A stretch of DNA of 64,000 nt, from positions 1 to 64,000 of the forward strand of contig JACPIQ010000007.1 of assembly GCA_016188005.1 (NCBI GenBank), read 5' to 3'. The notes below the pieces were generated by a model that saw only the letters and a list, made by a program, of their open reading frames with translations, did not search any database and was not told where the DNA came from. The stretch comes from Candidatus Rokuibacteriota bacterium. GTDB lineage: Bacteria; Methylomirabilota; Methylomirabilia; Rokubacteriales; CSP1-6. Positions within the stretch are counted from its first letter, which is position 1. Every line of letters starts with the position of its first letter. The translations under genes and the position numbers were made by a program. Of the stretch, positions 22,809 through 41,611 are shown one piece after another.

Positions 22809-23290
22809 GGCGCCGCTCCGGCCGCCGCGGCGCCGGGCGGGGTCGCCGTCAGGACCCGGTACAGCTCTCGCAGTCGCTCGGCGCGGGACCGCGCCTCGGG
22901 ATCCCCGCCGACCTCCTCGACGGCCAGCTCGAGGGTCGCCGTCGCCGCCGCCCGATCGGCCACGCGGGCGATGGCGCCGATGGTCCACCGGTCCTCGCCG
23001 GCCTCGCGCCGGGCGCAGCGCAGGCGGAGCTGGTCGCCTGGCGTCACGGCACGCCGGAAGGAGGCCGCGGACACGCGCTCGAGACGCCCGACCCGCTCGA
23101 AGCCGTGAGTCAGGGCCACGAGCAGCTGGGCGCTCTGCTCGAAGGCCTCGAGGATGAGGGCGCCGGGAAAGATGGGGCAGCCGGGAAAATGGTCGTCGAA
23201 GATGTCCTCGGAGGCGCTCACGTTCTTGAGGGTCTCGATGGCGCACCCTGGCTCCACCGCGAGGATCCGGTCGACCAGGACGAACCGCAT
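22805..23290 (-). CDS. fabZ: FabZ-like 3-hydroxyacyl-ACP dehydratase
   Basis: This 161-residue hotdog-fold protein has the catalytic pair of FabZ: His34 in DDHFPGCPIFPG and Glu48 in ALILEAFEQSAQ. It dehydrates 3-hydroxyacyl-ACP to trans-2-enoyl-ACP. The C-terminal 20 or so residues form an extra Ala-rich tail. It lies 16 bases after the acyl carrier protein gene and overlaps the FabL-like gene. A second hotdog protein encoded earlier in the operon lacks these residues, so this is likely the active dehydratase of the set. Confidence 0.9.
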   Translation of the reverse strand: MRFVLVDRILAVEPGCAIETLKNVSASEDIFDDHFPGCPIFPGALILEAFEQSAQLLVALTHGFERVGRLERVSAASFRRAVTPGDQLRLRCARREAGEDRWTIGAIARVADRAAATATLELAVEEVGGDPEARSRAERLRELYRVLTATPPGAAAAGAAP

Positions 23291-25927: not shown

Positions 25928-26361
25928 GCCTCCCTCGCGCCGGGCCAGACGGCGGTCGCGGGAGCGCTCACGCAGAGGTAGAGTAGCTGCGCGGTGGCGA
26001 TCTGCTCCGTCCCCGCGTACACGGTCCCGCTGACCTCCGCCAGGGCCGTGCCATCGGCGGCGCACGAGCTGGCCACGAGCTCGGCCACGGCCCGCAGCGG
26101 CACTCCGGGCCGCGCGCAGCCGTGGAACCGCGCCTCGCGCGCCTTGAGCAGGAGCGGGAGCCGGCGCTCGCCGAGCCGGCGGAAGATCAGGTGACCGCCC
26201 GCCATCGCCAGGAGCTCCAGCACGAGGCTGTTCGGCACGCGGTCGGGACCGGCCGGACCCGACAGCGCATCGTCGCCCGGCGGGAAGGTCTTGACGATCT
26301 CTATGCGGGCCCGGGGCTCGAGCTCCAGTGCCACGATCTCGTCCGCGAAGCGGTAGCGCAT
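25924..26361 (-). CDS. FabZ-like hotdog protein without the catalytic histidine
   Basis: The 145-residue protein has the FabZ beginning (MRYRFADEIVALELEPRARI) and the helix NSLVLELLAMAGGHLIF, with the equivalent of the catalytic Glu at 49. The HFPG motif is missing: residues 30-43 read DDALSGPAGPDRVP, so the histidine position is near Ser34-Gly35. It may bind acyl groups, form a heterodimer with the intact dehydratase, or catalyse something else. The ATG shares one base with the acpS stop (TGATG) and the stop overlaps the ketosynthase-like gene. Confidence 0.72.
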   Translation of the reverse strand: MRYRFADEIVALELEPRARIEIVKTFPPGDDALSGPAGPDRVPNSLVLELLAMAGGHLIFRRLGERRLPLLLKAREARFHGCARPGVPLRAVAELVASSCAADGTALAEVSGTVYAGTEQIATAQLLYLCVSAPATAVWPGAREA

Positions 26362-26741
26362 CAGGACGGCACCAGGAGAACCATGGCGATGGCGTGGGAC
26401 TCGGTGTGGGAGAGCGACACGGCGCCGGCAGCGAGCCCCTGGCCTACGAGTGCCTGAGCCGTCGCTCCGTGGAAGGCCAGACCCGGCGCCCCGACGGCAT
26501 CACGGGTGACCTCGACGTCACGCCAGGTCATCGCCCCCGCCAGGCCTGAGCCCAGCGCCTTGAGGGCGGCCTCCTTCGCGGCCAGCCGCGCGGCAAGCCG
26601 CGGCCAGGACTTCGGGCGGGAGCGGCAGTAGTCCAGCTCGGCCTCGGTGAAGACGCCTCTCAGGACGTCCTCGCGATCCTCGAAGCGCGCGCGGAAGTCG
26701 GCCACATCCACGAGATCGACCCCCACCCGCGCTCCGACCAC
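26361..26741 (-). CDS. acpS: Holo-ACP synthase (AcpS-type phosphopantetheinyl transferase)
   Basis: The 126-residue protein has the two AcpS motifs: GVDLVDVADF (metal-binding Asp9) and RLAAKEAALKALG (catalytic Glu/Lys). It also has the ending SLSHTESHAIAMVLL typical of the family. It transfers 4'-phosphopantetheine from CoA to Ser47 of the carrier protein encoded downstream. A dedicated AcpS at the head of the acyl genes argues that the ACP is not the housekeeping one. It begins 34 bases after the stop of the SLBB exporter gene, so it may be transcribed from the promoter in front of that gene. Confidence 0.9.
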   Translation of the reverse strand: MVGARVGVDLVDVADFRARFEDREDVLRGVFTEAELDYCRSRPKSWPRLAARLAAKEAALKALGSGLAGAMTWRDVEVTRDAVGAPGLAFHGATAQALVGQGLAAGAVSLSHTESHAIAMVLLVPS

Positions 26742-26775: not shown

Positions 26776-29220
26776 TCAGAACAGGACGGCCAGCGCCGCG
26801 AAGGAGAGGAGCGCAGCGCCCACCGTCTGCACCACGTCGCGCACCGTCGGGAGGACGCGGATCTTCTCCTCCTGCTTCGGCGGCACGACGATGGTGTCGC
26901 CCGGCTCGATGTCGCGCAGCTTGGTGAAGCTCGACATGGCCGACCCGTCCGCCTTGACGATGTGCAGCTCTTTCTTGTCGGCCTCCTTCGTGAGGCCCCC
27001 CACGCGGTTGAGGTAGTACTCGGGGCTGGCCCCCTGGACCCAGAGCACCGAGGTGGATGTCCGCACCGCCCCCAGGACGTAGACCGAGGCCGGCGGTTCA
27101 GTGACTTCGAGGCTGTCGCCGCCCACGAGCACGATGTCGTCCGGCCCTCCCCGGAGCTTCTCGGGCGCGTCGAGCCGCACGACCATGCGCCCCACCGCCA
27201 CCTTGGCCGCCAGCGCCCGGAGCGCCTCCCGCTGGGCCTCGAGCGCCTTCTGCTGCGAGGCGTTCTCGTCCTTGTCGGCGCCCACGACGGTCGTGGAGGC
27301 CGCCGCCAGGATGCGCTGCTCCTGTACGCGGACGAACTCGTCCAGGCGCTCCTTCTCGACCCTCTGGAGCGCCTCGCGGGTGAAGACCGCGCTCCTGAGA
27401 TAGGCGCGGTCGGTGAAGCCCCCGGCGCGATCGAGGACCGAGCTGAGCCGCTCGCCCTCGGCGATGACGTACCGGCCGGGCCGTACCACCTGGCCGCTGA
27501 GCGTCACGTGACTCGCCGCCTTCAGCTCCGTGCGCACGGCCACCTCGTCCAGCGCCTTGAGCAGAACGTCCTGGTCCTGGTCCCCGCTCCACGCCTTCCT
27601 GAGGTTCACCGGGATGATCTCGACCGCCAGATCCGGCCGCCGGCGCGCGATCTCCACGCGCTCGGGCTGCGCCTCGGGCAGGAGCTTGTCGGCGGGCAGG
27701 AGCTGGGTGATGCGCATCATCGGCTTCAGCTCGTAGGTGCCCGGATACTTGACCGCGCCCTCGACCTTGATGGTGTTGTAGATGCGCGGGTCGCTGCGGT
27801 AGATCAGCACCAGGTCGCCGCCGTTGACCGGCGGATTGCTGGCCCGGTCCCCCTTGAGGTAGTACTGGCTCAGGTCCACGTCGACCGTCACGCGCTCGGC
27901 ATTGGGCTGGGCGCGGACGAGCTGGACGCGCTTGAGGTAGCTGGAGGGCGTGATGCCGCCTGCCAGCGTGACGAGATCGGACACCCGCGCCTGGCCCCGG
28001 AGCTCGTAGATGGCCGGGCGCTTGACCTCGCCGGCGATGGCCGCCACCCCGCCCACGGTGGGGACGAACACCGTGTCGCCGGACTCGAGACGGAAGTCGC
28101 GCGTCCGGTCTCCGCGCTGGAGAAAGTCGTAGAGGTCCAGCGTCCCGACCTGATGGCCGTTCCTGAGCAGCCGCACTTCCCGGAGCGAGCCGAGCTTCGT
28201 GGGTCCCCCCGCGCTGAACAGCGCGTTGGTCAGGGTCGCCAGCGAGCTCAGCGTGTACACGCCGGGCTGGCAGACCTCGCCGACCACGTGCACCCGGAGG
28301 GTGCGGAGCCTGCCCATGGTCACGCTGGTCTGGAAGCCGCGGAAGTACCGCGAGAGCTGCTCCCGGATGAGGCGATCGGCCTGGGAGAAGGTGAGCCCCC
28401 AGACGCGCAGGTCGCCCACCTTGGGGAGCACGATGCGGCCGTTGCGGTCCACCGTGCGCACCACGGTGGCGTCCACGGGGCCCCAGACGTGGATCGTCAG
28501 GTCATCCCCGGGGCCGAGCACGTAGTCGGGGCCCACGGGGATGTCGTCCACGGGGGCGAACGTGGAGACGTCGGCGGCGAAGGTCGTGTAGCCGTACTGG
28601 CGGAGCGGCTCGACTGAGGACCCTTGCGGCCCGGCGCCCTGCAACGCGTTCTGGGGACGCCTGAGCCCCGCCAGCGACTGGTACGAGTCCTGGTAGAAGC
28701 CGGCCTCGATGCGCGACAGATCCTCTGACTCCCTCCCCTGTGCTGGCTGAGGGGACTGCGCGGGCTGCTGCGGCTGTGCGGGAGGCGTCGTGCCGCCCGC
28801 GCGGCGTGGATCGGTCGGCGTCGTGCCGGGCGCCTGGAGCGCTCCCCGGCTTCCGGGGGTCGCAGAGACCTGACTCACCGGGACACCGGCCCCGCCTCCC
28901 GGCTGGCCGTCGCGCGGAGCGGGCACCGACACGACCTGCTGCTGGGGGGCGACCCGCTGATGGCACGGGGACACTCCCGTCGGGCCGAGCTGCCGCGGAG
29001 GGCTCGGGGGCTGCATCCACTGGCCCAGCGGCGCCCCTCCCCCCGGAACGCTCGGAGTCCCGCCGAAGGAGGGCGCTCCCGGGTAGCTCCCGTTCGTCAC
29101 GCCCGGGCCCGAGGCCGCACCAGGGAGCGGCGATTGCTGCGCCGAGAGCGGGGCGGCAACAAACGCCACCAGCGTGGTGGCGACGATGACGGCACGGGAT
29201 CCAGATCCAGATGTCTTCAT
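26776..29220 (-). CDS. Wza-like polysaccharide export protein with several SLBB domains
   Basis: The 814-residue protein has a signal peptide (about 1-27, ending PLSAQ) and a Gly/Pro/Gln-rich N-terminal segment (about 28-190). The Poly_export domain starts near residue 227 (YVLGPGDDLTIHVWG). Several SLBB domains follow (VVGEVCQPGVYTL, IAGEVKRPAIYEL, VEGAVKYPGTYEL, LSGQVVRPGRYVI, VLGAVRTSTSVLW). A C-terminal hydrophobic helix (about 795-814) may span the outer membrane. It forms the export channel of a capsule/EPS system. ATG 29220 is preferred over an upstream start because it begins the signal peptide. It lies at the head of the acyl/arn run, 34 bases before acpS. Confidence 0.88.
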   Translation of the reverse strand: MKTSGSGSRAVIVATTLVAFVAAPLSAQQSPLPGAASGPGVTNGSYPGAPSFGGTPSVPGGGAPLGQWMQPPSPPRQLGPTGVSPCHQRVAPQQQVVSVPAPRDGQPGGGAGVPVSQVSATPGSRGALQAPGTTPTDPRRAGGTTPPAQPQQPAQSPQPAQGRESEDLSRIEAGFYQDSYQSLAGLRRPQNALQGAGPQGSSVEPLRQYGYTTFAADVSTFAPVDDIPVGPDYVLGPGDDLTIHVWGPVDATVVRTVDRNGRIVLPKVGDLRVWGLTFSQADRLIREQLSRYFRGFQTSVTMGRLRTLRVHVVGEVCQPGVYTLSSLATLTNALFSAGGPTKLGSLREVRLLRNGHQVGTLDLYDFLQRGDRTRDFRLESGDTVFVPTVGGVAAIAGEVKRPAIYELRGQARVSDLVTLAGGITPSSYLKRVQLVRAQPNAERVTVDVDLSQYYLKGDRASNPPVNGGDLVLIYRSDPRIYNTIKVEGAVKYPGTYELKPMMRITQLLPADKLLPEAQPERVEIARRRPDLAVEIIPVNLRKAWSGDQDQDVLLKALDEVAVRTELKAASHVTLSGQVVRPGRYVIAEGERLSSVLDRAGGFTDRAYLRSAVFTREALQRVEKERLDEFVRVQEQRILAAASTTVVGADKDENASQQKALEAQREALRALAAKVAVGRMVVRLDAPEKLRGGPDDIVLVGGDSLEVTEPPASVYVLGAVRTSTSVLWVQGASPEYYLNRVGGLTKEADKKELHIVKADGSAMSSFTKLRDIEPGDTIVVPPKQEEKIRVLPTVRDVVQTVGAALLSFAALAVLF

Positions 29221-29281
29221 GGCACAGGCCCCCCTCGTCCCCGGGCAGCTCCGCACGGGCCGACCCCCCCAAGGCAACGAA

Positions 29282-29287
29282 AGTATA
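29282..29287 (-). promoter_or_regulatory. Possible -10 element upstream of the SLBB/acyl/arn run
   Basis: TATACT on the minus strand (29287-29282) is a near-consensus -10 in an unusually AT-rich patch within the 104-base gap between 29221 and 29324. At 17-18 bases upstream the -35 is poor (GAAGCC/TGAAGC); TTGTGA occurs slightly too far upstream. It would start transcription about 55 bases before the exporter gene. Confidence 0.4.
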
Positions 29288-29324
29288 GCCGCTCTGCAGA
29301 CTTGGGCTTCACAAAAATTCCGCG

Positions 29325-30068
29325 TCACAGTGACAGCCGCCAGCGGGGGAACCCATAGGCCGGGTTCGCCGGATCGAAGTCGAGCGGGCTCAGGGGCGGA
29401 TTCAGCCGCAGGTCGGTGTAGGCGTACTCGGCGACAGGCCGGCCGGCCTCATCGGACAGGATGGCAGCCACCGGGAGCCCGGAGGCGCCGTCGATCGTGA
29501 TCACGGCACCGCGCACGTCCTCTCCAGGGCCGGCGCCCCTCGGCACGCGCATCTCGATCCGCCGGCCGCGCCTCCCGCCTTCCTCGACGAGGCCGGCATC
29601 CCGGAGGACCAGCTCTCCGCGCTCCTGCGCCCGACGCATGGAGCCCAGGATCAGGTCGATCAGACGCCCCAGCCCCACGTCCGTGATCGGGTGCCGGCTC
29701 TCGCTGAGCACGCGCGGGCTGTCGGGCGCCAGCAGGACGGTGAACAGCCCTGCCAGGATCCCCGGCCCATGGATGAGGGCCCGGTCGCCGTGTCGCCCGC
29801 GGACGAAGAGCAGCTCACGCCCCTTGGGCGGCCCCTCGATCCACCGCAGGTACATCCGGTCCGGCCGCTGGAACTTGACCAGCGCCTCCTCGCGAGGCCG
29901 GCGGTCGCCGGCCACCACCTCCTGCCGGGCGAAGCGAGCCGTGTAGCGTTCGACCGTCGCGTACGCGGCCTCCATGCCGAGGAGCACCCGCGCCGGTTCG
30001 GCGCCGTCGGCGCCCCAGGCCGGCGCGGCCAGCGCGACCCCGAGCAGGCCGACGGCAACCGCGATCAC
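29325..30068 (-). CDS. Periplasmic DUF1571-like/LolA-like protein
   Basis: The 247-residue protein has a signal peptide (about 1-20, ending APAWGADG) followed by a domain that begins with repeated YATVERYTARFARQE. It also contains FQRPDRMYLRWIEGPPKG, which resembles DUF1571 and outer-membrane-lipoprotein-carrier-like folds. It could bind a lipid or acyl group in the periplasm, though no specific ligand is visible. The GTG at 30068 was chosen because it overlaps the ligase stop (GTGA) and gives a clean signal peptide. The longer open frame upstream is Arg-rich shadow sequence. Confidence 0.65.
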   Translation of the reverse strand: MIAVAVGLLGVALAAPAWGADGAEPARVLLGMEAAYATVERYTARFARQEVVAGDRRPREEALVKFQRPDRMYLRWIEGPPKGRELLFVRGRHGDRALIHGPGILAGLFTVLLAPDSPRVLSESRHPITDVGLGRLIDLILGSMRRAQERGELVLRDAGLVEEGGRRGRRIEMRVPRGAGPGEDVRGAVITIDGASGLPVAAILSDEAGRPVAEYAYTDLRLNPPLSPLDFDPANPAYGFPRWRLSL

Positions 30069-31429
30069 CGCCGGCCGCCAGCCGCGGCCCCCGCCTCGAC
30101 CCAGCCCGGTGGACCGCTGTCGCGCTCGTCGACGAGCCGCAAGAGCTTGCGCGAGCGGCGCAGCGTCCCGGGCGCGAAGAAGCGGAACTCGATGTCCACG
30201 AGCTGCTGGCGGTAGGCGAGCCACGCCTCGGGCGCCGACCGCTCGAGCGCCGCGAGCACCGTGCGCGCCGCCGCGTCGCGCTCCGCCGCCACGGCCGCCC
30301 GCTCCAGCCGGAACTGGAAGACCGGCCTCAGCCCCCGCTCCCCGAGCGCCACCTGCCAGTCGCTCCCCGGCTCCTCGACGCCAGCCAGGAGCGGCTCGAA
30401 GAACTCCGGGTGGACATTGCCCCAGACACAGGCGATCTGCTCGTCCAGCCGCCCGCGCAGCGGCGAGATCCGCCGAAAGGGCAGCCCGCAGCGACAGCGG
30501 CCGGGGAGCCAGCGCGCCACGTCCCCCGTCCGGTAGCGGATGAGCGGCATGACGCGCCGGTGGACGGTCGTCAGGACGAGCTCGCCGTAGCCGCCGGCGT
30601 CGGGGGCGTCGATCTCGATGTGGAAGTCGAACTCGTTCAGATGATAGCCCTCACGCTCCAGGCACTCGAAGCCGAGAATGGTGGCCGCCTCGGTGGAGGC
30701 ATAGGTCATGAGCACCGGCGCCCCCCAGAAACGTTCGAGCGCCGCGCGGGTTTTCGCCGTGATCCCCTCGCCGCCGCCCACCAGGAGCTTCATCGGGCCG
30801 GGACGGCCGTGGGCTTCCGCGATCTCGGTGAGTCGCCCCAGCCAGAAGGGGTCGCTGACCACCACGTTGAAGCGATACTCGGCGATGCGTCGATAGGCCT
30901 CCATCGGGTCCACCCGGCCGGGCACCATGGCGAACAGCCGCGTGTGGCGCACACCGCGTTCCACCAGGAGCGCGCCGAGGCCCCAGGCCAGGTCGAGCGT
31001 GCAGAGCAGCCGGTCCCCGCCCCCCAGGCCCCAGAGCGCGTACAGCAGGCCGCCCTGGGCCGCGCTGTACTCGAGCTCGTCGCGGCTCAGGTACACGCGC
31101 GCGACGTGACCGCTGGTCCCCGAGCTCTCGATGGCCAGGTCCGGCGCCCCACACAGGAGGCGCTCCGGCTGCCGCTTCAGCACCTCCGGCGTGAGGAAGA
31201 AGTCGCCGAGGTCCCCGAGCCGCCGGACCGCGTCGGGGTCCAGACCCGCGCTCCGGAAGCCCTCCCGGTAGTACGGTGCCCGCGACGCGCGGCGGAGCGT
31301 GGCCCGGAGCCCCGGTTCGCGCAGCGCGTGGAGGAGCGGCAGCGGCAGGGTGCGCAGGGCGGCGAGCGGGAATCGCGGCACGCGCCGGCCGACGCCGAAG
31401 AGGAGGCGGGAGACGGCGGTGACGTTCAT
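30065..31429 (-). CDS. CapK/PaaK-type AMP-dependent ligase
   Basis: This 454-residue ANL-family protein of the phenylacetate-CoA ligase/CapK group has the phosphate loop ESSGTSGHVARVYL near residue 105, YASTEAA near 240, and the conserved YRTGDVARW near 325. A Cys-rich turn RCRCGLPF follows. CapK homologues occur in capsule loci, where they activate a carboxylic or amino acid for transfer to a sugar; the substrate is unknown. The ATG at 31429 overlaps the aminotransferase stop (ATGA), and the stop overlaps the DUF1571-like gene. It could also activate acyl chains for this locus. Confidence 0.82.
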   Translation of the reverse strand: MNVTAVSRLLFGVGRRVPRFPLAALRTLPLPLLHALREPGLRATLRRASRAPYYREGFRSAGLDPDAVRRLGDLGDFFLTPEVLKRQPERLLCGAPDLAIESSGTSGHVARVYLSRDELEYSAAQGGLLYALWGLGGGDRLLCTLDLAWGLGALLVERGVRHTRLFAMVPGRVDPMEAYRRIAEYRFNVVVSDPFWLGRLTEIAEAHGRPGPMKLLVGGGEGITAKTRAALERFWGAPVLMTYASTEAATILGFECLEREGYHLNEFDFHIEIDAPDAGGYGELVLTTVHRRVMPLIRYRTGDVARWLPGRCRCGLPFRRISPLRGRLDEQIACVWGNVHPEFFEPLLAGVEEPGSDWQVALGERGLRPVFQFRLERAAVAAERDAAARTVLAALERSAPEAWLAYRQQLVDIEFRFFAPGTLRRSRKLLRLVDERDSGPPGWVEAGAAAGGRR

Positions 31430-32628
31430 GAAGCCGCCCGCGCGAAGTGCGCGAAGACCTTGTCGAGAGCCCGGAGCGCATCGTCCTGATCGGCCTCGGT
31501 CATGGACGGGAACAGGGGCAGTGTGACGAGCTGGCGCCCGGCGGACTCGGCGATGGGGCAGAGGCCGGGGCCGGAACCGAAGCGGCGCCGGTAGAAGGGA
31601 TGGAGATGCACCAGCGGGTAGTGCAGCGTGGCGCCGATGTTCTCCGCGCGCAGCGCGGTGAGGACCGTGTCCCGGTCGGCGGCCAGCCGCTCGGGCCGGA
31701 GGAGAACGACGAAGAGGTGCCAGCCGTGCCGGCGGCCGGGCGGCAGGGCGGGCAGCTCGAGGAACGGCGAGCCGGCAAGCCGCTCGCGGTACCGCCGGGC
31801 CAGCCGGTCGCGCGCCGCCCAGAAGCGGTCGAGCTTGGCGAGCTGGCTGAGACCCAGGGCGCACTGGAAGTCCGTCAACCGGTAGTTGTTCCCCGGCAGG
31901 TCGATCTCGTACTGCCAGGGCCGCCCGGCATCCTGGTAGCGGATGCCGTGGTGCCGCATGACTCGGAGGCGCTCGGCCAGGTCGTCCCGGTCCGTGACGA
32001 CCGCCCCACCCTCCCCCGAGGTGATGAGCTTGGCCGGGTGGAAGGAGAACGTCGTGAGATCCGCGAGCGTTCCCACCGGACGATCCCCGAGGGCGCCGCC
32101 GAGCGAGTGGGCGGCATCGGCGATGAGCAGCCAGCCATGCTCGCGAGCGAGCGTGCGGAGCGCATCCCAGTCGCACGGCAGACCCGCGAAGTCCACAGCG
32201 AGCACCGCGCGCGTCCGCGGCGTCGCCAGTCGCTTGACCGCCTCCGGATCGAGGTTGAGCGTGGCGCGATCGATGTCCGCGAACACCGGGCGCGCCCCTT
32301 GATAGACGACGGCGTTGGCCGTGGCGGCGAAGGTGAGCGGCGTCGTGATCACCTCGTCCTCGGGCCCGAGCCCGGCCGCCCAGCAGGCGGCGTGAAGCGC
32401 CGCGGTCCCGTTGGCGACGACGACGGCATGTCGTGTGCCCGCGACGGCCGCCAGCGCCTTCTCGAACCGTGCCACGCCGGGCCCCTGGGTGATCCAGTCT
32501 CCAGCGAGCGCTCGACTCACGGCGGCGATATCCTCCACGTCGATGGCCTGGCGCGCGTAGGGGAGGAGGGTCGGCCGGATCGGGGTGCCGCCGAAGAGCG
32601 CCAGCGTCGGGCCACTCAGCTTCGCCAT
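31426..32628 (-). CDS. PseC-like PLP-dependent sugar aminotransferase
   Basis: The 400-residue DegT/DnrJ/EryC1/StrS enzyme has the PLP lysine in FSFHPAKLITSGEGGAV. Its N-terminal pattern (LPYARQAIDVEDIAAV, DWITQGPGVARFE, TTPLTFAATANA) is that of PseC, which makes UDP-4-amino-4,6-dideoxy-AltNAc in pseudaminic acid synthesis. Other nonulosonic genes lie at 41-47 kb. A GGAGA ribosome binding site precedes the ATG at 32628. About 160 bases separate it from the next gene upstream. UDP-sugar aminotransfer in another pathway, including an ArnB role, is possible. Confidence 0.8.
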   Translation of the reverse strand: MAKLSGPTLALFGGTPIRPTLLPYARQAIDVEDIAAVSRALAGDWITQGPGVARFEKALAAVAGTRHAVVVANGTAALHAACWAAGLGPEDEVITTPLTFAATANAVVYQGARPVFADIDRATLNLDPEAVKRLATPRTRAVLAVDFAGLPCDWDALRTLAREHGWLLIADAAHSLGGALGDRPVGTLADLTTFSFHPAKLITSGEGGAVVTDRDDLAERLRVMRHHGIRYQDAGRPWQYEIDLPGNNYRLTDFQCALGLSQLAKLDRFWAARDRLARRYRERLAGSPFLELPALPPGRRHGWHLFVVLLRPERLAADRDTVLTALRAENIGATLHYPLVHLHPFYRRRFGSGPGLCPIAESAGRQLVTLPLFPSMTEADQDDALRALDKVFAHFARAAS

Positions 32629-32785
32629 GCGTCGTTCTCCGTCACCGCCGGTCCTCGACGTCCCGCCTCGTGCGGCGCCGGCCGGCGGCAGCTCTGCCGC
32701 CACTCCCGCCTCGTGCGCTCAGCCCGCCTTCGGCTGCGCCGCGCCAGCCTTCGAGCCTCGTCTGACCGGGTGCACGCGCCCCTCG

Positions 32786-33964
32786 TCACCGGGTGACCGT
32801 TCTCCACGCCCTGGCGAACCCCTCGGCCCAGGCGTCCACCACCTCCGGGGGCTGGGCGAACAGCGGACAGGACTGGGAGCCGACGATCAGCGACGCGTCG
32901 AGGGCGGCGACGGCGTGCGGATACGGGTCCGCCCGGGCGAAGAGCGGGTGCGCCGGCAGCGGCGCGGTCTGCCAGAGCACGGCCTCCACTCCCTGGACCC
33001 GCAGCGCGGCGAGCATACGATCCCGGAGCTCGCGGGGGGGCAGGCCGACCCCCGCTCGGTCCGGGTGCAGGCGGACGCGGTACTTGTGGAAGACGTGGGT
33101 ACGGTCCGGCGGCACCGCCGGCGGCTCGACTCCCGGGAGCGCCGCGAGCCGCTCCGTGAGCCGCCGGGCGTTCAGCTGGCTCCTCTCGGTGGTCGCGGCG
33201 AGCCCCTGCAGCTGGGCGCGAGCCAGCGCGCACGTCACCTCCCCGGGCAGATACATCCAGCCGGCAGTGGTCGCCAGGCCCTCGATCTCGTCGTCGAGCG
33301 GGCGCTCCGGGTCCCACTTGGCTGGTGCCTCGAGCCCGTCGAAGCGGGCGCGCGCCGCGCGAGCCCAGAGGGCTTCGGAGTCGGTCACGAACAGCCCTCC
33401 CTCTCCCGCTGGAAGGTTCTTCGTCGAGTTGAGGCTGAACGCGGCCATGGCGCCCAGCGTTCCGACCGGGCGGTCGCGATGCCGGGCGCCGTGAGCCTGG
33501 GCCGCATCCTCGATGACCGTGAGGCCGCATCGCCGTGCCAGCCTCTCGACGGCGTCCATGTCGGCCGGCAGCCCGTGGAGATGCACCGGGATGATGGCGC
33601 GCGTCCGCGGTGTCACGCGGGCGGCGGCGGCGTCGCAGGCGATCGTGTAGGTGGTGGCATCGATGTCGGCGAAGACCGGCACGGCTCCGACGTGGAGCAC
33701 GGCCTGGGCCGTGGCGATGAACGACAGGGCGGGGACGATCACCTCGTCCCCGGGACCCACGCCCGCGGCCGTCAGCGCGATGCCGAGAGCAGCCGTGCCG
33801 CTGTTCGTGGCGAGGCAGAACCGCGCGCCCACGACGGCGGCGAACTCCGACTCGAGGGCCCGCATCTCGGGCGCCCCGGCCCCCGAGAGCACACCCCGGT
33901 CGAGGACGCGCAGGACGGCATCGCGGTCGGCGGCCGTCAGGATGGGCCAGCGCTGGGGCTGCAC
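32786..33964 (-). CDS. DegT/DnrJ/EryC1/StrS aminotransferase
   Basis: This 392-residue PLP enzyme has the lysine in SLNSTKNLPAGEGG and a typical family core (TNSGTAALGIALTAAGVGPGDEV, PVHLHGLPADMDAV, EDAAQAHGA). It starts with GTG 33964, only 4 bases after the inositol-phosphate synthase stop, so the two are likely cotranscribed. This pairing is compatible with an amino-cyclitol (for example scyllo-inosamine type) as product, but sugar substrates are equally usual for the family. It is one of four DegT-family enzymes in the window. Confidence 0.8.
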   Translation of the reverse strand: MQPQRWPILTAADRDAVLRVLDRGVLSGAGAPEMRALESEFAAVVGARFCLATNSGTAALGIALTAAGVGPGDEVIVPALSFIATAQAVLHVGAVPVFADIDATTYTIACDAAAARVTPRTRAIIPVHLHGLPADMDAVERLARRCGLTVIEDAAQAHGARHRDRPVGTLGAMAAFSLNSTKNLPAGEGGLFVTDSEALWARAARARFDGLEAPAKWDPERPLDDEIEGLATTAGWMYLPGEVTCALARAQLQGLAATTERSQLNARRLTERLAALPGVEPPAVPPDRTHVFHKYRVRLHPDRAGVGLPPRELRDRMLAALRVQGVEAVLWQTAPLPAHPLFARADPYPHAVAALDASLIVGSQSCPLFAQPPEVVDAWAEGFARAWRTVTR

Positions 33965-33968
33965 CCCG

Positions 33969-35198
33969 CTACCCCCCTCGCCGCGCCCGCTTCAGGCCGT
34001 CTGCCGCGTGCCGCTCCACGTAGTCCATGAGGAGCTGGACCTGGTCCTGGAACGCACTGATTCGCACACCCAGGGGGTCCTTGAAGAAGCACGCCAAGTG
34101 CGTCATGGGCCCGACCTCTCCCGCACGCTCGGCGAACTCGGCCAGCCGGACGAGGTCGAGGACGAGAGGAGCCGCGAGGATCGAGTCGCATCCCTGCCAG
34201 ATGAACTGCACGCTCATCCGGGTGTCGAGGAATCCGCGGAAGTGGATGAAGTCCCACGCGGTCTTCCAGTTCCCGAGGGAGGGCACGTACTCGATGGCGA
34301 CGGAGGCGTGCGGCGCGTACCCGAGGCTCGGCGCGAGCACGCCGCCCTTGCTCCGCAGCTTCGACGCCTTGTGACGCGGGTTGGCCAGGACCTGGCCGTC
34401 GCCGCCGCCGAGGAGGTTCACGCCTTCCCAGGACAGGACCTCGAGGTTCCGATAGCGGAAGAGCGGGGCGAGGACCGTCTTCATCAGCGTTTCGCCCGTC
34501 TTGCCGTCCGAGCCGAAGAAGGACACCCGGCGCGTCTCGCCGAGCTCCTGCAGCGCGGGTGGGGTGACACCGAGGGACGGCGTGAAGTTGATATAGGGGC
34601 AGCCCCGGTCGAGGGCCGCGTAGGCATAGAGCATGCTGGGCGTGACCATCGCCCGCCGGTCCTGCTGCAGGACCCGGCGGAAGCTTCCGAGGCGGGCGTG
34701 CTCCGGGCCCAGGCTGATAGGAGGCTCGGTGGAGGCCACGTTGACCACGATGACGGTATCCAGGTGCTCGTCCTCCCGGAAGCGCTGGAGGTCATCCCCC
34801 AGCCGCGCCGCGGCGTGCTCGAGCGGTTCCCGGCGTGGGCCTCGCCCGCCCCCGCCGCGCGAGGGCCGGGCCGGACCGCCGCCCGCCGCAAAGCCCGGCT
34901 GGACCCTGCGCTCCACCGCGAGAAGATCGTCCTCGACGGCGGCCACGAGCCCCGCGTTCAGCGCCCGGTGGTCGCTCGCCAGCGCCCGGGCCTGGTGCAG
35001 GATGCCGGCCGAGTTGACCTCCCAGCCGGCGAACACCAGCCGGTGGAGGCCGGCGAGCGGGAGCGCCCGCACCTCCGGCAGCTCCGTGACGAGCCCCGTG
35101 GGTCCCGCGAGCCCGTGCGCGATGGCACGGGCGCCAGTGACCACGGTCGAGGCAAGCGACCCGGCAGCACCGATCAACCACACCCCCACCTTGCGCAT
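33969..35198 (-). CDS. myo-Inositol-1-phosphate synthase
   Basis: The 409-residue NAD-dependent enzyme of the inositol-phosphate synthase family would isomerise glucose 6-phosphate to inositol 1-phosphate. Visible features are the N-terminal NAD site (GVWLIGAAGSLAST), YINFTPSLG, FFGSDGKTGETLMKTVLAPLF, NLLGGGDGQVL, the KGGV segment and the C-terminal FIHFRGFLDTRMSVQF. A Gly/Arg-rich insertion near residue 110 looks unstructured. ATG 35198 is preceded by AAGGACGGAG. Its presence in a glycan locus suggests inositol in the polymer or in a lipid anchor. Confidence 0.87.
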   Translation of the reverse strand: MRKVGVWLIGAAGSLASTVVTGARAIAHGLAGPTGLVTELPEVRALPLAGLHRLVFAGWEVNSAGILHQARALASDHRALNAGLVAAVEDDLLAVERRVQPGFAAGGGPARPSRGGGGRGPRREPLEHAAARLGDDLQRFREDEHLDTVIVVNVASTEPPISLGPEHARLGSFRRVLQQDRRAMVTPSMLYAYAALDRGCPYINFTPSLGVTPPALQELGETRRVSFFGSDGKTGETLMKTVLAPLFRYRNLEVLSWEGVNLLGGGDGQVLANPRHKASKLRSKGGVLAPSLGYAPHASVAIEYVPSLGNWKTAWDFIHFRGFLDTRMSVQFIWQGCDSILAAPLVLDLVRLAEFAERAGEVGPMTHLACFFKDPLGVRISAFQDQVQLLMDYVERHAADGLKRARRGG

Positions 35199-35386: not shown

Positions 35387-37225
35387 TCAGCCACCGGGAC
35401 TCGTTCGACCCCGGAGCACCGCCCGGCATGCCCCGCCCGTCGGACCGCACTCGCCCGCCCAGGTGTGGGCGGGAGTGCTCGCGTAGAGCCAGCGGGACCC
35501 GAAGCGCCCCACGACGCGAACGGATTCGCGTGGCAGCGTGGCGGCCACGCCCCGGCCGCGTCCCTGCTGGGTCACGAGGAACACCCGGTCGGGCCCACGC
35601 CACAGCGCGGCCAGGGCGGCGGCGTCGAGGAAATACTCCCGGGCTTCCGGCCGGCGGGAGGCGAACTCGAGGTCGCCACGCGCTCCGTTCACGACCCTGA
35701 TCCGGCGCCCGGTGTAGAAGGGCAGGGCGGCGCTGTACTCGAGGCTCCCTTCGTGGACCACCAGGTCGCGCGGCGCGGCCATGCCGCTGATGACCTCGGC
35801 AACCGCCCGTGTCGAGTGGTGCGGCTCGATCAGGATGAGCAGCTCAACGATGAGAGCGGCGATCCCGGCGCCCACCCCGACCAGCGCGAGCAGCGCGCCG
35901 CGGCGCCAGCCCCGCATCCAGCAGACCCCGGCGATGACCCACCCGGCCAGCAGTGTCACGCCGAGCCCCTGGAGCAGGAGCCCGAATGGGCGCACGGACT
36001 CGAAGGGCAGGACGGCGCCCTGCTCGCGCAGGATGCGGTAGTACACGTTGAGGTGCGCGAGGCCGCCGAGGATCTGCTCCGGCGTCATCCGCGGTCCCAG
36101 CCAGATGGCCGCCGTTCCGACGGTCGCACACCCTGCGAGCCCGACCCCGAGCCACCGGCCCACATCGCGACCGGCCGTCCATCCGCCGGCCACGAGCACG
36201 GCGAACGCGGGCAGGGCGGGAAGCGCGTAGTACTCGAGCTTGGAGCCCGACAGCGCAAAGAACCCGACCACGACCGCCGCCCAGACCGCTGTCACCCGCC
36301 ACGCGGGCACGAGAGCGGTCGGCGCCGGCCGGGCCAGCAGGAATACGCTCCACGGGAAGAACCACAGGAACGTGGCCACCAGGTATCCCGGAGTCGAGAT
36401 CGCGACGTCGTCTTCCAGGAACTCGCGCAGGTTGAGGAACCGCAGGATCTGGTTGTCCACGAGGTAGAAGCGGAACAGGCTCGGGTCGCGCCACGCGACC
36501 AGCGCATGCCAGGGCACAGTGAGGGCGGCCACCAGGGTGAGGCCGCGAGTCAGGTTCAGGTCGCGCCACCGCAGCCCGGGATACCAGCGGAGGCTCACCC
36601 CGACGATGAGGGCCGGGAACAGCGCACCGATGAGCCCCTTGCTCAGCAGGGCGAGGGCCGACCCGGCGTAGAGGAGGAAGAAGCGGCGCCGGCCCCGGTC
36701 CGGACGCTCGGCGTCGACGATGAACCCGTAGACTGCCAGCGCCAGGGAGAACGCGAACACGAAGTCCGTCGACGCCTTCCGCAGGTAGAGCGCATATCCC
36801 GCGCTGGTCAGCAGCATCACGCCGGCCACCACCCCGCCGCGGGGTCCATAGAGCCGGCGCCCCAGCCGCCACGCGACGGCGCTCGTGCCCAGGGCGGCCA
36901 GCACCGACCAGCCGCGGAGGACCCACTCGGAAAAGCCAGTCACCAGAAACGCCAGCGCGGTCAGCCAGAAGTACAACGGCGGCTTTTCGAGGTATGGCAG
37001 CCCGTTGAACCGGGGAACGACCCAGTCGCCCGCGGCGACCATCTCACGCGCGACGTCGGCGTACAATCCCTCGTCCGGATCGAGGAGGGACATGCTCAGC
37101 CCGGGAACGGCGAACGCCAGCCCGACCGCCAGCAGGAGCATGCTCTCCGCGACGGAGGCGCGTGGGATCAAGACGCGCCAGGCCGTCCAGGGAGTCGTCG
37201 CCCGTCCAGACGTCTCGGGTGTCAA
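35387..37225 (-). CDS. ArnT-like lipid-linked sugar glycosyltransferase (PMT/GT83 family)
   Basis: The integral membrane protein of up to 612 residues has about 12 predicted helices. The ArnT/PMT signature lies in the first periplasmic loop (LLDPDEGLYADVAREMVAAG then VVPRFNGLPYLEKPPLYFW). ArnT moves 4-amino-arabinose from undecaprenyl phosphate to lipid A; this protein could do so with the product of arnC/arnD at 17-20 kb, or could transfer another lipid-linked sugar. The start is uncertain: TTG 37225 gives the longest form, while ATG 37141 (GGAGA just upstream) gives a 584-residue form that fits ArnT better. Very Arg-rich C-terminal tail. Confidence 0.82.
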   Translation of the reverse strand: MTPETSGRATTPWTAWRVLIPRASVAESMLLLAVGLAFAVPGLSMSLLDPDEGLYADVAREMVAAGDWVVPRFNGLPYLEKPPLYFWLTALAFLVTGFSEWVLRGWSVLAALGTSAVAWRLGRRLYGPRGGVVAGVMLLTSAGYALYLRKASTDFVFAFSLALAVYGFIVDAERPDRGRRRFFLLYAGSALALLSKGLIGALFPALIVGVSLRWYPGLRWRDLNLTRGLTLVAALTVPWHALVAWRDPSLFRFYLVDNQILRFLNLREFLEDDVAISTPGYLVATFLWFFPWSVFLLARPAPTALVPAWRVTAVWAAVVVGFFALSGSKLEYYALPALPAFAVLVAGGWTAGRDVGRWLGVGLAGCATVGTAAIWLGPRMTPEQILGGLAHLNVYYRILREQGAVLPFESVRPFGLLLQGLGVTLLAGWVIAGVCWMRGWRRGALLALVGVGAGIAALIVELLILIEPHHSTRAVAEVISGMAAPRDLVVHEGSLEYSAALPFYTGRRIRVVNGARGDLEFASRRPEAREYFLDAAALAALWRGPDRVFLVTQQGRGRGVAATLPRESVRVVGRFGSRWLYASTPAHTWAGECGPTGGACRAVLRGRTSPGG

Positions 37226-37255: not shown

Positions 37256-38425
37256 CTACCGGAACAGCACGCGTAACAGAATGGACTTGATGCCCCGTTG
37301 TCTGACGAGCGCCATGATGACCGGCCGGTGCCAGTTGAACCGCGCCGTGGCCGTCACGACCGCCTGCACGGCGTCCGACGCCGCGGCCTCGACGAACTGG
37401 TCCAGCTCGCCATCCGACAGGTTCGCGACGACCCGGCGAAACCAGCTGGCCGCCCGCATCTCCGGCACGAGGCGCTGTCGCCACCGGGTCTCGTACCGGG
37501 ACAGACGCGCCGCGCTCAGGTCGTCGTCGCGAAGCGCCTCCACGAGGGTCTCGGCCGCCACCGCGGACGAATACAGGCTGTAGAAGATCCCACCCCCGGT
37601 GACGGGCTTGGTGAGGCCGGCGGCGTCGCCGACGGCGACGACGCGCCCCCCGAAGCTCCGCCGCGCCCACCCGACGGGCACCAGGCGGCGAATCGGCTCT
37701 CCGGGAACGCCCTTGAGGCGAGCCGCGATGGACGGTTGGGCCAGCAATCGCCGGAGATGCGCGCGCGCGTCGCCGCGGAGCAGGACTCCCGCCTTCAGGT
37801 AGCTCCGCTCGCCACGCTGGATGGGGACGAGCCACCCGAACCCCCCCGGAGCCACCCGCTTGCCGAGGTAGATCTCCAGGGCCGTGGCCGGCTCGGCCTC
37901 CAGCTCGAGCTGGGCCGAGTGCAAGAGCGGGGCGGGCACCCCTGCATCCATCAGGCCGTGGAACCGGTAAGTCACGCCGCAGGCCAGGACCAGAACCCGC
38001 CCGCGCAGGGGCGACGCCGCAGCCGTCCGCACCTCGACATGCTCGGACCCGATCGTGACCGTGTCCACCCGGTGCCCGGTGATCACGGTGGCCCCCGCCG
38101 CCTGGGCGCTCACCGCCAACGCCTGGTCGAATGCTCCCCGGTCGATCGCCGCGAGCTCCTCGCCGGGATTCGTGAAATCAGCCGTGACTCCACCCGGTGA
38201 GATGACGAGGCACCTCAGCGGACGGTGCAACACGATCGAAGGCGGAATCTTGAAGTACTCGTCGACCTCGGCGGAGACCAGTCCCGTGCAGTGGGTGGGC
38301 ACCCCGACGACAGGATGCTCTTCCACCACGGTGACCTCGAGGCCCTCCTGGGCGAGCCGCCATGCGGCGTAGAGACCAGCCGGCCCGGCCCCCACCACGA
38401 TGACGTCGCGCAGGTCGGACATCAT
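37256..38425 (-). CDS. Geranylgeranyl-reductase-like FAD-dependent oxidoreductase
   Basis: This 389-residue flavoprotein has the FAD-binding GAGPAGLYAAWRLAQEG near residue 12, THCTGLVS near 45 and VGDAAGLTKPVTGGGI near 270, all features of the geranylgeranyl reductase/digeranylgeranylglycerophospholipid reductase group. These enzymes saturate isoprenoid double bonds, so modification of a polyprenyl carrier or of a quinone is plausible. Two consecutive ATG codons (38425 and 38422) could start it. It lies 18 bases after the WbuZ-like gene stop and 30 bases before the ArnT-like gene. Confidence 0.75.
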   Translation of the reverse strand: MMSDLRDVIVVGAGPAGLYAAWRLAQEGLEVTVVEEHPVVGVPTHCTGLVSAEVDEYFKIPPSIVLHRPLRCLVISPGGVTADFTNPGEELAAIDRGAFDQALAVSAQAAGATVITGHRVDTVTIGSEHVEVRTAAASPLRGRVLVLACGVTYRFHGLMDAGVPAPLLHSAQLELEAEPATALEIYLGKRVAPGGFGWLVPIQRGERSYLKAGVLLRGDARAHLRRLLAQPSIAARLKGVPGEPIRRLVPVGWARRSFGGRVVAVGDAAGLTKPVTGGGIFYSLYSSAVAAETLVEALRDDDLSAARLSRYETRWRQRLVPEMRAASWFRRVVANLSDGELDQFVEAAASDAVQAVVTATARFNWHRPVIMALVRQRGIKSILLRVLFR

Positions 38426-38443: not shown

Positions 38444-39205
38444 TCAGGCGATCCGGACATCGACGCCGGCCTGCCGCATGTACGCACGCGCCTTGATCAC
38501 GCTCTGGTCCGTGAAGTGGAAGAGGCTCGCCGCGGACACGGCCGACGCTCGCCCGAGGGTGATCGCATCCACCAGATCTCTCAGGCTTCCGGCACCGCCC
38601 GCCGCGATCACGGGGATCGGAACCGCGTCGGCGACGGCGCGAATGAGCGCCAGATCGTATCCCTGCATCGTGCCGTCCCTGTCGATGGAGTTCAGGAAGA
38701 TCTCCCCGGCTCCCAGCTCGGCCACCCGTTCTGCCCAGACGACGGGGTCCAGCCCGGTGGGCCGCTGCCCCCGTTGCACGAAGACCTCGTACCGGCCGTC
38801 CGCCAGCCGCCGGCAGTCGATCGAGGCGACGATGCACTGGGCGCCGAACCGTTCCGCCCCGTCGCGGATGACCTCGGGCCGCCGCACCGCCTCCGTGTTG
38901 ATCGCCACCTTGTCCGCCCCCGACCGCAGCAGATCGCGGATGTCCTCGAGGGTGCGCACACCCCCGCCCACCGTGAGGGGCATGAGACAGGCGTCGGCCG
39001 TGCGTTCCACGATGTGGTAGAGCGTCGTGCGGTTCTCAGTCGTCGCACTGATGTCGAGAAAGATGAGCTCGTCCGCCTCCTGCGCGTCGTACACGCGCGC
39101 GGCGGTGACGGGGTTCCCGACATCGCGGAGGGCGTCGAACCCGATGGTCTTCACGCACCGCCCGTTCAGGAGCAAGAGCGACGGGATGAGGCGGCTCTTG
39201 AGCAT
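38444..39205 (-). CDS. wbuZ: HisF paralogue for sugar amidation (WbuZ type)
   Basis: This 253-residue TIM barrel closely resembles the HisF cyclase of histidine synthesis. It keeps Asp130 (ASIDCRR) and the phosphate loops (VGGGVRTLEDI, AAGGAGSLRDL), but the HisF Asp11 position is Leu11 (LIPSLLLLNG). This, together with the neighbouring glutaminase and sugar amidotransferase, identifies the WbuZ/HisF2 group that passes ammonia for amidination of a UDP-sugar. It follows the HisH-like gene after 18 bases. Not a histidine biosynthesis gene in this context. Confidence 0.86.
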   Translation of the reverse strand: MLKSRLIPSLLLLNGRCVKTIGFDALRDVGNPVTAARVYDAQEADELIFLDISATTENRTTLYHIVERTADACLMPLTVGGGVRTLEDIRDLLRSGADKVAINTEAVRRPEVIRDGAERFGAQCIVASIDCRRLADGRYEVFVQRGQRPTGLDPVVWAERVAELGAGEIFLNSIDRDGTMQGYDLALIRAVADAVPIPVIAAGGAGSLRDLVDAITLGRASAVSAASLFHFTDQSVIKARAYMRQAGVDVRIA

Positions 39206-39223
39206 CGCGGTCCGGGTGCGCCC

Positions 39224-39841
39224 TCAGGACCTCCAGCGGATGAAGTTCCTCAGCAACCGCTGGCCATTGGTCTGGCTCTTCTCGGGATGGAACTGGGTGC
39301 CCAGGATGTTCCCTTTCAGCACGAGCGCCGTGAACGGGCCTCCGTAGTCGCATGTGCCCGCGACAGTGTCGTCTCCGTCGCACACCATGTGATAGCTGTG
39401 CACGAAGTAGAACGACGGCGCCCCCCCCAGTCCCGCGAACAGGGGCGAGTCCATGACGATCTCGATCTCGTTCCAGCCCACGTGCGGCACCTTGAGGCCC
39501 TTGCCCTCCACGCGGAGCCGCTCCACGATCCCCCCCAGCCAGCCCAGCCCCGCCCGGCTGCCGTTCTCCCGGCCTTCGCGCGCAAGCAACTGGAGGCCCA
39601 GGCAGATCCCGAGAAAGGGCTTGCCACGATCGAGCACCTCGGTCCGGAGAGCCTCCACCAGCCCGGACGCCTCGAGGTTTCGCATCCCCTGGGCGAAGGC
39701 GCCGACCCCGGGCAGCACGATCCGTTCCGCTCGCTGCAGATCCTCGCTGCGACTCGTGACACAGACCTCGGCGCCGGCGGCTTCAAGCGCATTGCGGACA
39801 GAGCGCAGGTTCCCCATGCCGTAGTCGACCACCGCCGTCAC
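39224..39841 (-). CDS. wbuY: HisH paralogue, glutamine amidotransferase for sugar amidation (WbuY type)
   Basis: This 205-residue class I glutaminase has the catalytic triad Cys80 (GICLGLQ), His185 and Glu187 (QFHPEKS), and the HisH beginning VVDYGMGNLRSV. It releases ammonia from glutamine for its HisF-like partner. The GTG at 39841 was chosen because it overlaps the amidotransferase stop (GTGA); another GTG 15 bases upstream is possible. Confidence 0.88.
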   Translation of the reverse strand: MTAVVDYGMGNLRSVRNALEAAGAEVCVTSRSEDLQRAERIVLPGVGAFAQGMRNLEASGLVEALRTEVLDRGKPFLGICLGLQLLAREGRENGSRAGLGWLGGIVERLRVEGKGLKVPHVGWNEIEIVMDSPLFAGLGGAPSFYFVHSYHMVCDGDDTVAGTCDYGGPFTALVLKGNILGTQFHPEKSQTNGQRLLRNFIRWRS

Positions 39842-41010
39842 TTCGAGACGTCCCACCGCGCCTGGTCCCAGAGCGGTTCACCCTTGGTGACCTGCCGCGA
39901 GTCGTGGACATGGGGGGCGACGACGTGCTTCAGGGCGATCGCCATGAAGTCGTCCTCCGTGAGGTTCACGTACTCGAGGAAGACGTCGAGGCTTGCCGGC
40001 CGCTTCCCGTCGTGCTTCTCGATGAGCGCCGCCGCGTCCTCCGGCGTGATCCGTCCATTTCTCAAGTCGATGGCCGCGAGATGGTTCGTCCGGCCGTATC
40101 CGCGCTTGATGAACCGCAGGTAGTCCCGCACCCCCTGCATGGCGCACTCGATCTTCTCGTACCCGTACGCGGGGGGCACCCCCTCCACGTCGTTCTCCTG
40201 CCAGCCCAGCTCCCGCTTGATGACCTGGACTTGTGTCTTGACATCCCAGGGCATGTAACTCCCCAGGCAGATCGAGCGGCAGTTGATGGCGCGCAGGTCC
40301 GAAGGCCTCGGGTACGTGAACGGCTCCAGGTCCCGCTCCGTCACCGTGCCGTCGAGCATGCCCACCATGTCCTCAGCCGTGATGCCGAGGTTCACGAACC
40401 GGTTGAACCGCCGCTCATCCACCTCTTCCTCCTGCTGCTCGCCATAACCGTAGTAGCTGGTGTACTCGGCGCTCGGCTCGCCCCAGATCACCAGCGGGAT
40501 CTTGAACTTCACCGCGATGTGCATGGGATACGAGAAGATCCCCGTGTGACAGTGCCAGCAGAAATCGCCCTTCCGCTTGAGACTTTCCAGCATCAGCTTC
40601 TGCACGACCTTCCAGTTGGGCCGGAACTTCAGATAGTCGACCCCCAGCTTCTTGAGGGTGCGGTCGTTGTTCTCCAGTGTTCGCGGCCGCATGAAGCCAT
40701 GGTCGAACGTCACCACGAGCGGCTTGAGCTTGTGGTGGGTCACCAGGTGGTAGAGGGTGAAGGTGCTGTCCTTTCCGCCACTGAAGGGGACGATGCAGTC
40801 GTACGAGTGGCCGCCCCGGTACGCATCGAGGAGCTGGACGAACTCTCGCTCCTTGGCCGCCCAGTCGACCTTCGCCTTCTTGTCCTCGATCTGCCTGCAG
40901 ACGTTGCAGACCCCCTCGCGGTCGAAGAGGATGGTCTCGTGCGTTTCCGGCAGGAGGCACCGCACGCACCTCCGCAAGTCGTTCAGAATCTTCCCGGGCG
41001 CCTTGCTCAT
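39838..41010 (-). CDS. wbuX: N-acetyl sugar amidotransferase (WbuX/WbpG/PseA family)
   Basis: The 390-residue ATP-pyrophosphatase-type enzyme has the P-loop SGGKDS at 77-82 and two Cys pairs that look metal-binding (Cys15/Cys18 and Cys35/Cys38, plus CWHC near 147). Family members convert an acetamido group on a sugar to an acetamidino group using ammonia from the HisH/HisF-like pair that follows. In pseudaminic-acid systems the equivalent is PseA. The ATG at 41010 overlaps the acetyltransferase stop (ATGA). With the PseI- and PseG-like genes nearby, an amidinated nonulosonic acid is the likely product. Confidence 0.87.
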   Translation of the reverse strand: MSKAPGKILNDLRRCVRCLLPETHETILFDREGVCNVCRQIEDKKAKVDWAAKEREFVQLLDAYRGGHSYDCIVPFSGGKDSTFTLYHLVTHHKLKPLVVTFDHGFMRPRTLENNDRTLKKLGVDYLKFRPNWKVVQKLMLESLKRKGDFCWHCHTGIFSYPMHIAVKFKIPLVIWGEPSAEYTSYYGYGEQQEEEVDERRFNRFVNLGITAEDMVGMLDGTVTERDLEPFTYPRPSDLRAINCRSICLGSYMPWDVKTQVQVIKRELGWQENDVEGVPPAYGYEKIECAMQGVRDYLRFIKRGYGRTNHLAAIDLRNGRITPEDAAALIEKHDGKRPASLDVFLEYVNLTEDDFMAIALKHVVAPHVHDSRQVTKGEPLWDQARWDVSK

Positions 41011-41588
41011 CGTGCTTCGTTCCTCCGGTTCGGTCCCGTTTCCGTCTCGCACTCCGCTCTCTCTCGCTCGTTCATCGCCGCCAGGTACACGAGGTCCACG
41101 TATGCCCCCTCGGAGTAGTAGTGCCGCGGCCTCCGCGCCTCCTCGTGGAACCCGGCCTTCTCGAATGCGCGGATCGACCCCAGGTTGGTGCTGTAGCACC
41201 CCGCGGTGAGCTTGTGAAGGTTCAACCGCCGGAACGCGTAGTCGCTCACCAGGCGGATGGCCTCGGTGGCGTACCCGCGTCCCCACACGGACTTGTCGCC
41301 GATCAGAAGTCCGATGTCTCCGAGACGGTGAATCCAGTCGATGGGTCCCAGCTTGATATTTCCCACGTGCTGCTGCGTTCGCCTGTCCACGATGGCGAGA
41401 AAGATGCTGTCCCGACTCCCCTCCAGCGCCCTGACGTACTCGCGCAGCTTGTCCGCCGTGGTCGGGAAGAACCGGCTCTCCGTGTACCGCGTGACCTCCG
41501 GATCGTTCAGCCATCCGCCGTAGGTCTCGCCCGCGTCCGACTGCTGCACGGCCCGAAGGTAGACGCGCTCTCCGACCAGGAAGGCCAT
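41007..41588 (-). CDS. GNAT-family N-acetyltransferase (PseH-like or RimJ/RimL-like)
   Basis: The 193-residue protein has the GNAT core with the acetyl-CoA loop WGRGYATEAIRLVSDYAF near residue 105 and the family ending NLGSIRAFEKAGFHEEARR. In this setting it probably acetylates an amino sugar, the PseH step of pseudaminic acid synthesis, before PseG acts. The RimJ/RimL-like appearance means a protein-acetylating role is possible on sequence alone. ATG 41588 begins the fold directly (MAFLVGERVYLRAV). Overlaps the WbuX gene and lies 23 bases after the class III aminotransferase stop. Confidence 0.75.
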   Translation of the reverse strand: MAFLVGERVYLRAVQQSDAGETYGGWLNDPEVTRYTESRFFPTTADKLREYVRALEGSRDSIFLAIVDRRTQQHVGNIKLGPIDWIHRLGDIGLLIGDKSVWGRGYATEAIRLVSDYAFRRLNLHKLTAGCYSTNLGSIRAFEKAGFHEEARRPRHYYSEGAYVDLVYLAAMNERERAECETETGPNRRNEAR

Positions 41589-41611
41589 CGCCTCTCGGCT
41601 CACGGGTCCCC

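Follow-up and report, generated by a model that had tools for sequence, protein, structure and literature searches.

A myo-inositol-1-phosphate synthase and a DegT aminotransferase paired in an envelope-type gene cluster of Rokubacteria: a possible route to amino-inositol

Known routes that combine a myo-inositol-1-phosphate synthase (MIPS) with an aminotransferase make antibiotics, and rhizopines derive from inositol. Among DegT-type aminotransferases, BtrR aminates an inosose, whereas AHBA synthase and Fic25 use other ketones, the substrate of Fic25 being a LysW-bound amino-keto acid. One account (PMC10949010) places a MIPS and an aminotransferase in the hygromycin A cluster, whose aminocyclitol route comprises Hyg18, Hyg25, Hyg17 and Hyg8 and for which a phosphatase and an inositol dehydrogenase are also proposed. 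In the rhizopine pathway, which comprises MosB and an inositol dehydrogenase, MosB is a proven scyllo-inosose:L-glutamate aminotransferase whose gene lies with mosC and mosDEF (PMC6668481).

Here, a MIPS gene adjoins a DegT-family gene (DegT1) in a 64,000-nucleotide stretch of the genome of a soil bacterium, a Candidatus Rokuibacteriota (the window; G+C 70.9%). As in the hygromycin A aminocyclitol route, synthase and aminotransferase share one cluster, but the phosphatase and inositol dehydrogenase proposed there are not conserved in the window cluster, which is surrounded by envelope genes. The likeness to the rhizopine pathway lies in the aminotransferase, a MosB-type enzyme falling on the DegT1 side of the family tree; DegT1, however, is only 33% identical to it, a MIPS was not found in the Rhizobium leguminosarum mos locus, and a rhizopine is a small nutrient, whereas the product of the window would be part of the envelope. 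Enzymes of the BtrR/StsC type share the DegT fold, although DegT1 is without the Q-x-x-K motif found around the PLP lysine of BtrR and MosB. Fic25 of Streptomyces ficellus is the nearest solved relative (43% identity), but a LysW carrier was detected in none of the five genomes searched (controls detected, 4 of 14). The window cluster likewise recalls the Arn pathway of lipid A modification with L-Ara4N in its ArnA-like pair and ArnC-, ArnD- and ArnT-like genes, although these score below NCBIfam cut-offs and are mixed with fatty-acid genes, MIPS and Wza/Wzc. Searches of the open-access literature for a MIPS/DegT/Arn/Fab cluster yielded the hygromycin A paper, rhizopine papers and unrelated ones, and none that describes such a cluster; this variant of the MIPS-plus-aminotransferase pathways, which apparently serves an envelope glycan or lipid, looks new.

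The adjacent MIPS and DegT1 genes

MIPS (33969-35198; ATG at 35198, stop at 33969, 409 aa) and DegT1 (32786-33964; GTG start at 33964, end at 32786, 392 aa) are both encoded on the minus strand, the gap from the stop of the former to the start of the latter being four bases. Both Pfam parts of the synthase pass (PF07994, 159.2 bits, cut-off 25; PF01658, 102.7 bits, cut-off 27), as does the DegT family for its neighbour (PF01041, 289 bits, cut-off 19.8), in agreement with the first-pass annotation, which had reported these two genes as neighbours four bases apart. The PLP lysine of DegT1 is aligned in FSLNSTKNLPAGEGG.

The synthase is of the Archaeoglobus type: its closest solved relative is 1u1i (288.6 bits over query positions 6-392, nearly full length), with the next distinct enzyme, 7nwr, far below at 173 bits. 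Residues K284, K373 and N261, which we take to be catalytic, correspond to the sites altered in the Archaeoglobus structures 3qvw, 3qvx and 3qw2; they are unchanged in the window copy and invariant in an alignment of 11 MIPS sequences. Judged from these residues, the enzyme looks catalytically intact. As a second MIPS of mycothiol type (TIGR03450, 502 bits, cut-off 638) stands elsewhere in the genome, the window copy looks like an extra one dedicated to the cluster. Sequences like the mycothiol-type MIPS occur in 54 of 57 genomes of the family, only the copy of the window genome having been typed. That copy (contig C134, locus L048, 3000-6000) adjoins a CDP-alcohol transferase similar to archaetidylinositol and phosphatidylinositol phosphate synthases, which makes inositol phospholipids likely in this Rokubacterial family. 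Separately, MIPS relatives of 47-49% occur in Ebo-type loci of four Rokubacteria (L039 of genome G044, L040, L041 and L042); in L039 its neighbours are EboE (389 bits, cut-off 250) and an EboC-like protein of the UbiA type (188 bits, cut-off 250).

Co-occurrence of the pair and its envelope-type cluster

The MIPS subfamily of the window is found at ≥65% identity in 5 of the 95 genomes of the phylum, and a scan of species genomes gave 47 MIPS loci, 5 at 66-85% and 42 at 31-43%. The six genomes that hold it, five Rokubacteria (G000, which is the window genome, and G089, G090, G050 and G039) and one metagenome-assembled genome (MAG) labelled Elusimicrobia (G095), all hold a DegT1 orthologue, that of G089 being partial (86% over 136 residues), and because the two are together in 6/6 genomes their association exceeds chance. 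The genes are tightly coupled in the window, G089, G090 and G050 (with a 4-base overlap in G050), stand ~2 kb apart with two opposite-strand genes between them in G039, and are both kept in G095 at a distance of ~9.7 kb. Contig C19 of G095 (L134) shares 8,000 bases at 99.99% identity with contig C70 of the Rokubacteria MAG G090 (L156), a case of cross-binning that makes the Elusimicrobia label doubtful. As this label is unsafe and the threshold for MIPS is passed by only two of the 149 genomes in the phylum of G095 (G095 and another at 35%), the cluster may be Rokubacterial only.

A search of the phylum with DegT1 (E 1e-75) had matches in 10 of its 95 genomes, of which five are at 72-100% (G000, G090, G050, G039 and G048, whose contig starts inside the gene) and five at 51-58%. 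G019 carries a 57% relative between ArnT and an AMP ligase, together with GGR, Wza and Wzc; MIPS was not found on this 12.5 kb contig up to its end, and the only MIPS in G019 is a 37% relative elsewhere in the genome. Three genomes from a further family hold DegT1 relatives of 48-50%, whose operons also contain genes for a LacI regulator, ABC transport, a class III aminotransferase, Gfo/Idh proteins and an IolO-like epimerase (140 bits, cut-off 300), one genome also having an inositol-monophosphatase-family gene nearby; these operons weakly resemble those for sugar or cyclitol use.

Sixteen genes are common to the three fully covered clusters (G000, G050 and G095), all on the minus strand in the window. 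Four are Arn-like: an ArnD-like deformylase (17050-17967; PF01522 above cut-off, NF011923 230.8 bits, below cut-off 382), an ArnA-like UDP-sugar dehydrogenase/decarboxylase (17931-18890; PF01370 175 bits, PRK11908 159.6 bits, below cut-off 294), an ArnA-like formyltransferase (18887-19861; PF00551 and PF02911 above cut-off, ArnA model 280.3 bits) and an ArnC-like glycosyltransferase named by eye (19831-20769; 77-78% in G050 and G095). The fatty-acid genes follow: a FabF-type ketosynthase (20759-22024; PRK07314 402.7 bits, cut-off 387), a FabL-like enoyl reductase/SDR (22053-22805; NF005975 300.7 bits, cut-off 328), a FabZ-like dehydratase (22805-23290; PF07977 62.4 bits), an acyl carrier protein (23307-23915; PF00550 31.3 bits, above cut-off), a FabG-like reductase named by eye (23932-24678; 70-75% in G050, G095 and G048), a ketosynthase-like protein, by eye of chain-length-factor type (24668-25981; PF00109 71.2 bits), and a conserved hotdog dehydratase-like protein (25924-26361; TIGR01750 19.7 bits, far below cut-off). 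The remainder are a Wza-like polysaccharide export protein named by eye (26776-29328), a PaaK-like AMP-forming ligase (30065-31372, start approximate; PF00501 35.6 bits, above cut-off; DVU_1553-family 153 bits, below cut-off 300) kept next to DegT2/DegT1, the pair itself and a Wzc-like protein named by eye (46933-48087; 50-52% in G050 and G095).

Five further minus-strand genes are present in some clusters only: a holo-ACP synthase-like gene named by eye (26361-26741; 66% match in G095), a DUF1571 protein (29325-30224; PF07608 109.7 bits), a second aminotransferase, DegT2 (31426-32640, start approximate), an ArnT-like glycosyltransferase (35387-37225; PF13231 63.1 bits, NF009784 103.2 bits, below cut-off 567) and a geranylgeranyl-reductase-type FAD enzyme, GGR (37256-38425; TIGR02032 166.2 bits, cut-off 158.8). 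DegT2 belongs to the PseC/ArnB group, with ArnB as best solved relative (273 bits), a PseC model score of 405.1 (cut-off 423.5) and a PseC as its sister in the tree (100/99), and by this kinship its likely substrate is a UDP-4-keto sugar. With its Arn-like set and fatty-acid genes, the cluster seems, by gene content, to make a glycolipid or acylated glycan that would be exported through Wza and Wzc. An aryl-polyene cluster was considered and dropped, the FabL-like enoyl reductase being present and the scored families being those of ordinary type II fatty-acid synthesis.

Family placement of DegT1

NCBIfam scores name DegT1 as ArnB (205) or PseC (189), a naming rejected as not diagnostic, since the MosB-type enzyme too scores highest on PseC (179). 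Against solved chains, the single sequence gave 8gyh (Fic25) at 248 bits, ArnB at 176 and BtrR at 160; with four DegT1 orthologues BtrR (203) and ArnB (201-207) tied, and a profile of eleven relatives raised 8gyh to 386 bits, followed by 258 for the next chain, 252 for BtrR and 228-230 for ArnB, so that BtrR stands above ArnB only with the wider profile and the single-sequence order is reversed. The predicted model (mean pLDDT 79) likewise matches Fic25 best (8gyj, Z 43.7, rmsd 3.0, 373 aligned), the others lying near Z 40 (BtrR 40.0, ArnB 38.1).

Trees were unrooted, and solved chains entered them as aligned segments and not at full length. With 24 rows, DegT1 groups with Fic25 and 8y96 (98/97), and BtrR and AHBA synthase lie beyond that split; with 40 rows, BtrR and AHBA synthase fall on the DegT1-Fic25 side (94/87); and with a MosB-type row added, a 99/98 split separates 17 rows, including DegT1, BtrR, the MosB type, AHBA synthase and Fic25, from 27 rows of the sugar-nucleotide side. 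Branches are long for BtrR, AHBA synthase, 8y96 and the MosB-type row; StsC is absent, the DegT1 rows of G089 and G048 were omitted, the former for a masked stretch and the latter as partial, and the PseC reference row comes from contig C19 of G095 and may be from another organism than the G095 cluster. The MosB-type row is a DegT gene on an R. leguminosarum plasmid, with MFS, gluconate-dehydrogenase-type, GMC and cytochrome c genes coming after it; we take it to be MosB because this gene order fits mosB with mosC and mosDEF, and not by identity to the tested S. meliloti enzyme.

The first-pass annotation had named firm clustering with UDP-sugar enzymes as the outcome that would refute an amino-cyclitol, and the ArnB/PseC comparison was set by that criterion, the DegT1 group being named after the first tree. 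DegT1 does not cluster in this way. Approximately unbiased (AU) tests reject its union with ArnB/PseC (p 8.1e-4, and 6.7e-55 with the MosB-type row added), with the ArnB pair alone (p 1.9e-5) and with WbpE/QdtB/DesV (p 2.7e-4), and leave standing its union with BtrR alone (p 0.29), with the MosB type alone (p 0.475) and with the Fic25 pair (p 0.196); as a control, the MosB type with ArnB/PseC is also rejected (p 0.0017). On these trees and rejections, DegT1 is, by sequence descent, not a sugar-nucleotide aminotransferase, and its side of the split has mixed substrates. A DegT gene beside surface-sugar genes thus need not encode a sugar-nucleotide enzyme. Two other DegT genes were noted, one on a Mesorhizobium plasmid (L149), beside transketolase halves and a radical SAM gene and sister to 8y96 in the tree, and one at 55881-57413 of the window, near ArnB/PseC in the tree.

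Candidate product and competing readings

The reading that we place first, while holding it tentatively, is that MIPS and DegT1 work together in a single conserved cluster, one for a surface glycolipid or an acylated glycan, and make an amino-inositol. MIPS would convert glucose 6-phosphate to inositol phosphate; an inosose or inosose phosphate would arise through a phosphatase and dehydrogenase acting in trans, through a cluster SDR, or as the keto intermediate of MIPS; DegT1 would aminate it; and the resulting amino-inositol would be the head group or a residue of a product that contains, in addition, a 4-amino sugar of Arn type and a dedicated acyl chain. The amino-cyclitol first proposed for this locus thus keeps its intact-looking MIPS, its co-conserved pair and an aminotransferase outside the sugar-nucleotide group, and loses its Gfo/Idh partner (below). 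Counting against an amino-inositol are the presence of AHBA synthase and Fic25 on the DegT1 side, the lack of the BtrR/MosB motif in DegT1, the higher score of ArnB than of BtrR in the single-sequence search, the position of BtrR and AHBA synthase in the 24-row tree and the DegT1 relative without visible MIPS in G019. As neither a phosphatase nor an inositol dehydrogenase is among the 16 genes common to the three clusters, DegT1 was not filed as a member of the StsC/BtrR/MosB group. In a more specific form, which we regard as a long shot, DegT1 would directly aminate the MIPS keto intermediate 2-inosose 1-phosphate to an amino-inositol phosphate, bypassing a separate phosphatase and dehydrogenase, and this would serve as head group in an exported Rokubacterial glycolipid that is acylated and bears an Ara4N-like sugar. 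The fixed association of MIPS with DegT1 in an uncultured phylum, within a cluster of envelope type, would suggest that amino-inositol serves to build membranes or surfaces, and the two enzymes form a concrete pair for assay.

The strongest competitor, somewhat doubtful in our view, is that the two enzymes serve separate branches, the product receiving plain inositol phosphate from MIPS while DegT1 aminates another free keto sugar or polyol. The separation of the genes in G039 and G095, the G019 contig and the lack of an oxidising enzyme connecting the two steps are consistent with this, whereas the tight coupling in four genomes and the 6/6 co-occurrence argue for a common route. By analogy with Fic25, DegT1 might instead aminate the keto group of an acyl chain bound to the cluster carrier protein; Fic25 is its nearest solved relative in both sequence (386 bits vs 258) and structure, and in G095 DegT1 comes directly after the acyl carrier protein, but LysW was not detected in the genomes searched and the closer DegT1 relatives stand in sugar-type operons, and we consider this unlikely. 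The title of the Fic25 structure entry shows an N2-acetyl-DADH adduct only. A role for DegT1 as ArnB within the Arn-like set, making a 4-amino sugar, would suit the G095 cluster, which has Arn-like genes and DegT1 without DegT2, and the ArnT gene adjoining the G019 relative, but is improbable given the AU rejections and the presence, where contigs reach, of DegT2 in G000, G090, G050, G039 and G048, which fits that role.

With respect to the steps between MIPS and DegT1, the inositol monophosphatase sought in the genome exists in two full-length copies, both outside the cluster, and in G050 only is one found a few kb from it. The first-pass annotation had pointed to a Gfo/Idh protein at 43679-44686 (ORF 43679-44704; PF01408 93 bits) as a possible inositol-oxidising partner. 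This gene lies between PseI and a cytidylyltransferase, with overlapping ends, in a nonulosonate operon inserted between GGR and Wzc (PseG and PseI above cut-off; genes other than these and the cytidylyltransferase by eye), and its relatives in six other DegT1-holding genomes (35-44% identity) are on other contigs or, in G095, ~40 kb away; as it belongs to that operon and does not travel with the pair, it was rejected as the partner dehydrogenase. Nine proteins of the genome match the NCBIfam inositol 2-dehydrogenase model, none above cut-off, and because the Gfo/Idh protein is the best of these (162.9 bits, cut-off 355), a role in trans is possible. The same pseudaminic-acid-type operon (38444-46910) contains, by eye, HisF, HisH and WbpG-like genes, which, beside PseG and PseI, suggest that it makes an amidino nonulosonate.
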